From Erysipelotrichaceae bacterium (GTDB lineage Bacteria; Bacillota_I; Bacilli_A; Erysipelotrichales; Erysipelotrichaceae), in the NCBI GenBank assembly GCA_022767445.1, contig JALENJ010000024.1:1-46763 (forward strand): DNA of 46,763 nt, read 5' to 3'. Below the pieces are notes generated by a model that was not told the DNA's origin, searched no databases, and was given only the letters and a program-made list of their open reading frames with translations. Position 1 is the stretch's first letter. Every line of letters begins with the position of its first letter. The translations under genes were made by a program, and so were the position numbers. Positions 1 to 1,884 of this stretch are shown one piece after another.

Positions 1-1
1 A

Positions 2-136
2 ACAAAGGCAGCAGAGTTAGAGAAATACCAAGGAGTAACACTAAGTGATACAGTGGATGTAACAAGTGGAGCAACATTTACAAGTACATCCTTAAAAGCA
101 ATGATTGCGACAGCTTTACAAGCTGCATCTAAGTAA
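2..136 (+). CDS. rnfG: RnfG C-terminal end (partial, 5' end outside window)
   Basis: An open frame enters from the left edge and stops at 134-136, leaving 44 residues. They contain VTSGATFTS, the FMN-attachment motif of the RnfG/NqrC FMN-binding domain, in which the Thr of SGAT carries a phosphoester-linked FMN added by ApbE. The motif lies about 20 residues from the C-terminus, as expected for RnfG. RnfG is the membrane-anchored flavoprotein subunit of the ferredoxin:NAD+ oxidoreductase Rnf. The next gene, rnfE, starts 10 bases downstream, and rnfC and rnfD are presumably to the left of the window. FMN_bind domains also occur in other proteins, but the neighbours make RnfG by far the best reading. 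Confidence 0.85.
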   Translation, partial: TKAAELEKYQGVTLSDTVDVTSGATFTSTSLKAMIATALQAASK

Positions 137-1384: not shown

Positions 1385-1576
1385 TTGCTTAGAATATTTA
1401 TAGCAATTCTATTAGCTGTAGGTTTCTTTGCCCTGAATGTATGGCTATTAAGATTAAATCAAAAAACACCAGTTCCTGAAGGCTGTGAAGACCTAAAGGC
1501 AGAGTGTTCAGCATGTGGACTTACGGACTGTAGTGTCCGTAGAGCTCCACAAAAGAAAGAGGAGGACGAATGCTAG
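1385..1576 (+). CDS. Small one-helix membrane protein with Cys motif, inside the Rnf operon
   Basis: A 63-residue protein starts at TTG 1385, three bases after the rnfA stop. The Shine-Dalgarno is weak, so it is probably translated by coupling. Residues about 3-24 form one transmembrane helix. A soluble tail follows with CEDLKAECSACGLTDCSVR, four Cys in 16 residues, and another Cys is the last residue. I know no named Rnf subunit like this. The architecture (single helix plus Cys cluster) recalls NqrM, which helps put iron into the NqrD/NqrE site equivalent to RnfA/RnfE, and also FeoB-associated Cys-rich proteins. A role in cluster assembly or as an extra Fe-S carrier is inference. The stop overlaps the rnfB start (ATGCTAG). 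Confidence 0.7.
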   Translation: MLRIFIAILLAVGFFALNVWLLRLNQKTPVPEGCEDLKAECSACGLTDCSVRRAPQKKEEDEC

Positions 1577-1857
1577 TTGCAGTATTAAAATCATTTGCTT
1601 TGATGCTAGTACTTGGCGCAGTATTGGGAGGAGTTCTTGCCTTTGCTTCAATTAAATTCTATGTAAAAGAAGATAACCGCAAGGAAGAACTAACAGCTCT
1701 ATTACCTGGTTATAACTGTGGAGCATGTGGTAATCCAGGTTGTGCTGCTATGGCAGTTAAGCTACTTGAGGGATCTTGCCAAGTAGAACAATGTAAACCA
1801 AGCAAGCCAGAGCAAAGAGAGAAGATTAAAGAATATCTCGCTGAAAATGCGGCTTAA
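1570..1857 (+). CDS. rnfB: Minimal RnfB: membrane anchor plus one Fe-S domain, no ferredoxin domains
   Basis: A 95-residue protein has an N-terminal transmembrane helix (residues about 5-30) and then the RnfB-type Fe-S domain, NCGACGNPGCAAMA followed by GSC and QC: the C-x2-C-x4-C-x(16-17)-C pattern for one [4Fe-4S] cluster. Known RnfB proteins are about 2.5 to 3 times longer and carry at least two further ferredoxin-like [4Fe-4S] domains. Here the frame stops right after the first domain and a terminator follows, so no second half lies downstream. AGAGGAGGAC is a strong ribosome binding site. The protein looks intact rather than broken, with a natural charged C-terminus. RnfB normally accepts electrons from ferredoxin; how this short form would do so is unknown. 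Confidence 0.85.
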   Translation: MLVAVLKSFALMLVLGAVLGGVLAFASIKFYVKEDNRKEELTALLPGYNCGACGNPGCAAMAVKLLEGSCQVEQCKPSKPEQREKIKEYLAENAA

Positions 1858-1884
1858 AAATCTGAGTTTATCTCAGATTTTTTT
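1857..1884 (+). terminator. Intrinsic terminator of the Rnf operon
   Basis: AAATCTGAG pairs with CTCAGATTT across a TTTAT loop and a run of T follows. It starts at the rnfB stop codon, marking the operon end. Confidence 0.85.

Follow-up and report, generated by a model that had tools for sequence, protein, structure and literature searches.

The window (the whole stretch of 46,763 nucleotides of Erysipelotrichaceae DNA analysed here) opens with the distal part of an rnf operon, in which a gene for a small cysteine-containing protein (SCP) lies between rnfA and a short rnfB (Table 1). The 3′ end of the SCP gene overlaps the start of rnfB by 7 bases, and a hairpin followed by a T run begins at the rnfB stop codon; a consensus terminator scan did not list this hairpin, the stem of which is too poor in G–C pairs for that rule. 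No ferredoxin gene follows rnfB at the locus. Window position 1 is the first base of its contig (C31:1), and the end of another contig (C26) encodes ApbE, RnfC (435 amino acids, two [4Fe–4S] motifs) and an RnfD that continues into FMN_bind repeats. RnfD is here fused to tandem FMN_bind repeats (L003:7694-9301 plus window 1–136), and the C26/C31 contig break falls inside the repeats. RnfC, RnfD and RnfG (FMN_bind) are co-operonic, at the end of C26 in this genome and contiguously in most of 80 loci from named genomes of other species.

Table 1 Features of the rnf operon at the start of the window
Feature	Position	Strand	Remarks
FMN_bind repeat, C-terminal end, extracellular (RnfG or RnfD–RnfG fusion)	1–136	+	Open frame, ending in an SGATFTS flavinylation-type motif
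rnfE, 220 amino acids, C29 and C112	147–809	+	PF02508 and TIGR01948/NF009070 matches
rnfA, 190 amino acids, C24 and C112	809–1381	+	TIGR01943, 240.4 bits (cut-off 229.3)
SCP (small Cys protein), 63 amino acids, single-helix membrane protein, TTG start	1385–1576	+	Conserved gene of the rnfA/rnfB interval
rnfB (short), 95 amino acids, ATG start	1570–1857	+	Membrane helix, one PF04060 [4Fe–4S] (B8-type) domain and basic tail
Terminator-like hairpin and T run	1856–1882	+	11-bp stem, z-score −2.9 (RNA folding)

The genome is a draft (74 contigs, 97% complete) with a single PF04060 match and a single RnfC_N match. Profile searches of the genome found no second RnfB or second RnfC, which leaves no place for the second full-length rnfB, with its own rnfCDGEA, that the original prediction had named as a possible objection.

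RnfB had been predicted to consist of a membrane helix and one [4Fe–4S] domain, and this was borne out. A full-length match to PF04060 spans the protein (44.7 bits, cut-off 23), and the rnfB model (TIGR01944) covers 7–89 of its 190 positions at 53.1 bits, under the cut-off of 68.7; by this model the further ferredoxin-like [4Fe–4S] domains are absent from the short RnfB. Their loss, without a replacement downstream, had also been foreseen correctly. The predicted structure is a complete domain (pLDDT 90.7) that aligns with residues 1–92 of Acetobacterium woodii RnfB (9eri_B); as modelled, the short RnfB is exactly the helix plus B8. The path proposed for A. woodii has ferredoxin docking at B1–B2 and electrons passing to B8, the terminal relay cluster, the domain of which travels to RnfA/RnfE; published RnfBs have three to eight [4Fe–4S] clusters (PMC11889175). 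We found no published description of a single-domain, short or truncated RnfB in a search of the open-access literature, and its novelty is to that extent provisional.

The four cluster cysteines are kept in nearly all short-RnfB members. Past the last cysteine, short RnfBs carry a basic tail (mean net charge +1.5, compared with −0.08 in 12 long RnfBs), and this conserved tail is a possible ferredoxin contact. The RnfB model also matches the N-terminal [4Fe–4S] domain of corrinoid iron–sulfur proteins, with Z scores of 7.6–9.6 over the structural matches; in the large subunit this small, mobile, single-cluster domain shares the B8 fold (Z 9.6), although the protein, unlike RnfB, is soluble, belongs to the acetyl-CoA pathway and has no membrane anchor. 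In the corrinoid protein, low-potential donors, ferredoxin among them, are known to reduce this domain. Some RnfBs of 183–192 amino acids have the single-cluster domain duplicated with no ferredoxin domains after it (L220:5425-5988, L224:6204-6758, L225:5452-6030 and L254).

With canonical Rnf (A. woodii, Clostridium tetanomorphum and Azotobacter vinelandii), the short-RnfB systems share the RnfC-D-G-E-A-B set, an RnfC with two [4Fe–4S] motifs, the RnfB helix and B8, and the RnfA/RnfE cluster cysteines; they differ in lacking further RnfB cluster domains, in having the SCP gene and, often, in extra FMN_bind repeats on RnfD or RnfG. Across 233 short-RnfB operons, C29 and C112 of RnfE are kept in 98–100% and C24 and C112 of RnfA in 100%; these are the four ligands of the membrane [2Fe–2S] cluster.

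The original prediction described a membrane protein with five cysteines between rnfA and rnfB. The protein is there, with cysteines at positions 34, 41, 44, 49 and 63 (motif C-x6-C-x2-C-x4-C), but the fifth is private to the window sequence and, among 158 distinct sequences, about 17 belonging to several lineages lack the first. The near-constant part is a core of C-x2-C-x(2–6)-C, present in 156 of these very diverged sequences. In one family (f12), SCP is only 35–38 amino acids in length and has three or four cysteines, in the usual operon position. The structural model gives a confident helix at residues 2–27 and a cysteine part of low confidence, which probably faces the cytoplasm (the charge balance favours this in 94 of the 158 sequences and the opposite in 21).

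No Pfam family scored over its cut-off for the window SCP, the first 24 SCPs or 28 diverse SCPs, and PF04400 (NqrM) was absent from the matches listed at E values of up to 10 for both sets. NqrM has been described as a small membrane protein needed to mature the NqrD/E cluster (PMC12174285). Like SCP, NqrM has one helix, at the N-terminus, and after it a short cysteine motif, is encoded near a pump operon and is tied to an NqrD/E-type membrane cluster; its cysteine spacing (C-x11-C-x1-C-x3-C in L327/L332) is unlike that of SCP. An initial profile comparison of the two (hhalign) gave a probability of 54%, but 20 of 150 shuffles did equally well, so that the likeness does not rise above shuffled sequence, and we rejected SCP as a member of the NqrM family, to which it has no detectable homology. 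Membership of the FeoB-associated cysteine-rich membrane proteins (FeoB_associated, PF12669), which likewise combine a short helix with a cysteine motif, was also rejected: matches were weak (11 of the 28 diverse SCPs, best E values 0.0012–0.0018), the best score among those listed was 19.5 bits against a curated cut-off of 27, and no FeoB gene was seen beside SCP in the loci that we read. Comparison with solved structures gave chance matches only. Against the N-terminus of RnfB, none of 150 shuffles was as good as the SCP profile, which aligned in register over the helix and C-x2-C-x4-C; the two may share an ancestor, or may have converged on a helix plus CxxCxxxxC.

Among 60 relatives, short RnfB occurs in nearly the whole genus of the window, and a related family contains some genera with short and others with long RnfB (about 265 amino acids). 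In 20 operons from those relatives, SCP lies between rnfA and rnfB wherever RnfB is short and never where it is long. When named genomes of other species were scanned with an SCP profile, the order was rnfE–rnfA–SCP–short rnfB in 80 of 80 loci; having been picked via SCP, these loci test gene order and RnfB length, not the frequency of short RnfB without SCP. They come from the Erysipelotrichales Bulleidia extructa, Solobacterium, Lactimicrobium, Holdemania filiformis, Holdemanella biformis, Anaerorhabdus furcosa, Catenisphaera, Ileibacterium and others, and from one rumen genome labelled Acholeplasmatales. Order-wide (316 genomes), SCP was found in 207 and PF04060 in 247. In 28 of these genomes that we rechecked, nearly all without SCP, the PF04060 proteins were long RnfBs or unrelated proteins of about 400 or 560 amino acids; the sole exception was one genome with SCP and short RnfB.

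We then covered one class (395 genomes) with a wider SCP profile (A2) and the rnfA model, finding SCP in 179 genomes and RnfA in 217: 176 had both, 3 SCP only, 41 RnfA only and 175 neither, counts that are not independent of kinship. SCP is thus nearly confined to Rnf-bearing genomes (176 of 179), including cases in which it has left the operon. In 80 stretches from the class, short RnfB (about 90–127 amino acids, four to six cysteines) is the usual form. About 19 families have it, and in many of them the SCP gene separates rnfA from rnfB, which rules out an oddity restricted to Erysipelotrichales. Several families lack SCP in the operon and have it elsewhere, with rnfB still short; its neighbour is then a dCMP deaminase gene, or it is flanked by genes for a phosphohexomutase and a uracil-DNA glycosylase. 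SCP-like genes not linked to rnf, several of which recur in a fixed setting, were seen at L204, L205, L209-L211, L231-L234, L237, L238 and L325. The 41 RnfA-only genomes comprise eight with long RnfB, about fifteen without a PF04060 protein, and a remainder with short RnfB and a diverged or unseen SCP. SCP does not accompany short RnfB in quite every genome, as about ten with short RnfB have no recognizable SCP. One genome of the genus of the window (G031) has lost rnfCDGEA and the short rnfB and keeps an intact SCP between ApbE and a SAF-like gene (L164, G031:C6); it carries a canonical Rnf with a long RnfB elsewhere (L034).

In a tree of joined RnfE and RnfA, the short-RnfB operons form one group (SH-aLRT 99), apart from the long-RnfB operons, and RnfB length changes state once. 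The association of short RnfB with SCP thus arose about once and has since been maintained. Because the link traces to about one evolutionary event, genomes cannot be counted as separate events, and co-occurrence with short RnfB does not on its own prove the function of SCP. SCP has moved out of the operon at least twice, and the relocated genes are the best sign of a functional link beyond inherited gene order. A large clade has the short-RnfB form as its standard Rnf, and this form is best regarded as a genuine Rnf complex with a distinct clade of its own.

The genome of the window encodes pyruvate:ferredoxin oxidoreductase (PFOR), an [FeFe]-hydrogenase-like protein and a soluble 2[4Fe–4S] ferredoxin of 59 amino acids, the separate ferredoxin-domain protein for which a search had been suggested. 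A soluble donor therefore exists and neither a special docking subunit nor a separate docking module is required. The anatomy of the operon, its conservation, its single clade, the co-occurrence of its genes, the cysteine ligands and the presence of PFOR and ferredoxin are all read from sequence; direct docking of ferredoxin, the topology of SCP and its role are our interpretation. On balance, and by a modest preference, we favour a reading in which the single RnfB domain takes electrons directly from soluble ferredoxin, with SCP as a membrane factor for iron or Fe–S assembly. RnfB would then be only a membrane helix and a mobile single-cluster relay domain (B8 in A. woodii). PFOR would make reduced soluble ferredoxin, which would pass electrons straight to the RnfB cluster; the domain would swing to RnfA/RnfE and reduce the membrane [2Fe–2S] cluster, and electrons would continue through the RnfG and RnfD flavins and RnfC to NAD+. 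SCP, with its cysteine motif probably cytoplasmic, would deliver iron or an Fe–S cluster while RnfA/RnfE or RnfB is being assembled, a role likened to that of NqrM for Nqr. Of the two roles first suggested for SCP, a further Fe–S centre or an NqrM-like factor, assembly is thus favoured, even though NqrM family membership and any Pfam match fell away. It is favoured because the gene can leave the operon and persists alone in one genome, because its cysteine count varies with only three near-constant, and because one family has a version of about 35 residues. Long-RnfB Rnf has the same RnfA/RnfE cluster without SCP, and SCP is therefore no general need of that cluster. Apart from the Nqr case, we are aware of no factor devoted to the assembly of Rnf.

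The likeness between SCP and the RnfB N-terminus fits a redox subunit equally well. SCP would then hold an Fe–S cluster at the cytoplasmic face beside the RnfB domain and take over part of the lost intake role, perhaps having arisen by partial duplication of the N-terminal part of RnfB. The four cysteines of most members, the membrane helix, the tight coupling to rnfB through their overlap in the window and the in-register profile match all agree with this; the lost first cysteine, the minimal f12 versions, the unlinking of the gene from rnf in several families and the low-confidence fold of the cysteine part do not, and we consider such a subunit unlikely. We give slightly less credence to SCP as a cluster-binding piece split off from RnfB by partial duplication of its N-terminus, making electron entry a two-piece affair with the single-domain RnfB; if this were true, ferredoxin docking and pump gating would fall on the same moving domain. 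It is improbable that SCP is a metal-free structural peptide that stabilizes the short RnfB or RnfA/RnfE: every member has the single helix, which is also the part predicted best, and the f12 form is little more than that helix, but a near-constant cysteine core would be unusual for a purely structural tail.

The complex might alternatively draw no electrons from ferredoxin any more, with RnfC sending electrons from NADH backwards to multi-flavin extracellular domains and the RnfB remnant serving assembly or gating only. Extra FMN_bind domains are common in short-RnfB operons, fused to RnfD or within a long RnfG, and an extra outward electron path has been proposed for the multi-flavinylated RnfG reported previously (PMC8238504). 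However, many members have an ordinary single-FMN RnfG, the cluster cysteines of RnfB and of RnfA/RnfE are conserved, and the genome, with its PFOR, ferredoxin and hydrogenase-like genes, would make and hold reduced ferredoxin; there is little to commend reversed flow. A sequencing or assembly error hiding a longer RnfB frame, or a decaying gene, could be suspected in a draft in which the operon is split over two contigs, but is refuted by relatives and can practically be dismissed: the same short length recurs at all 80 named loci and in about 19 families, and the complete, confidently predicted domain, the conserved cysteines and the hairpin at the stop codon speak against it.

In every Rnf complex for which a structure has been studied, RnfB carries several clusters, and a natural one-cluster clade shows what is dispensable. 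If, as their genes indicate, these gut and oral bacteria run Rnf with a one-domain RnfB and SCP, a many-cluster RnfB intake domain cannot be essential to the Rnf pump. In such a minimal Rnf, ferredoxin intake and pump gating could be studied on one small domain, and SCP is a candidate dedicated assembly factor for Rnf. The clade includes species of the human gut and mouth (Holdemania, Holdemanella, Bulleidia and Solobacterium), and annotation and metabolic models built on the expectation of a complete RnfB therefore need correcting.

Two operons without RnfB, and also without SCP, have the RnfA/RnfE cluster cysteines replaced. They encode RnfC, RnfD, two FMN-type proteins, RnfE, RnfA and ApbE, with all four cysteines substituted (L322 in G443 and L323 in G473), and are possibly a flavin-only derivative of Rnf. 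Three genomes without a PF04060 RnfB carry an Nqr-like operon with no visible nqrA (L320 in G402, L321 in G606 and L326 in G469), encoding NqrB, C, D, E and a ferredoxin-reductase-like NqrF; at L320 it adjoins ATPase-like genes.
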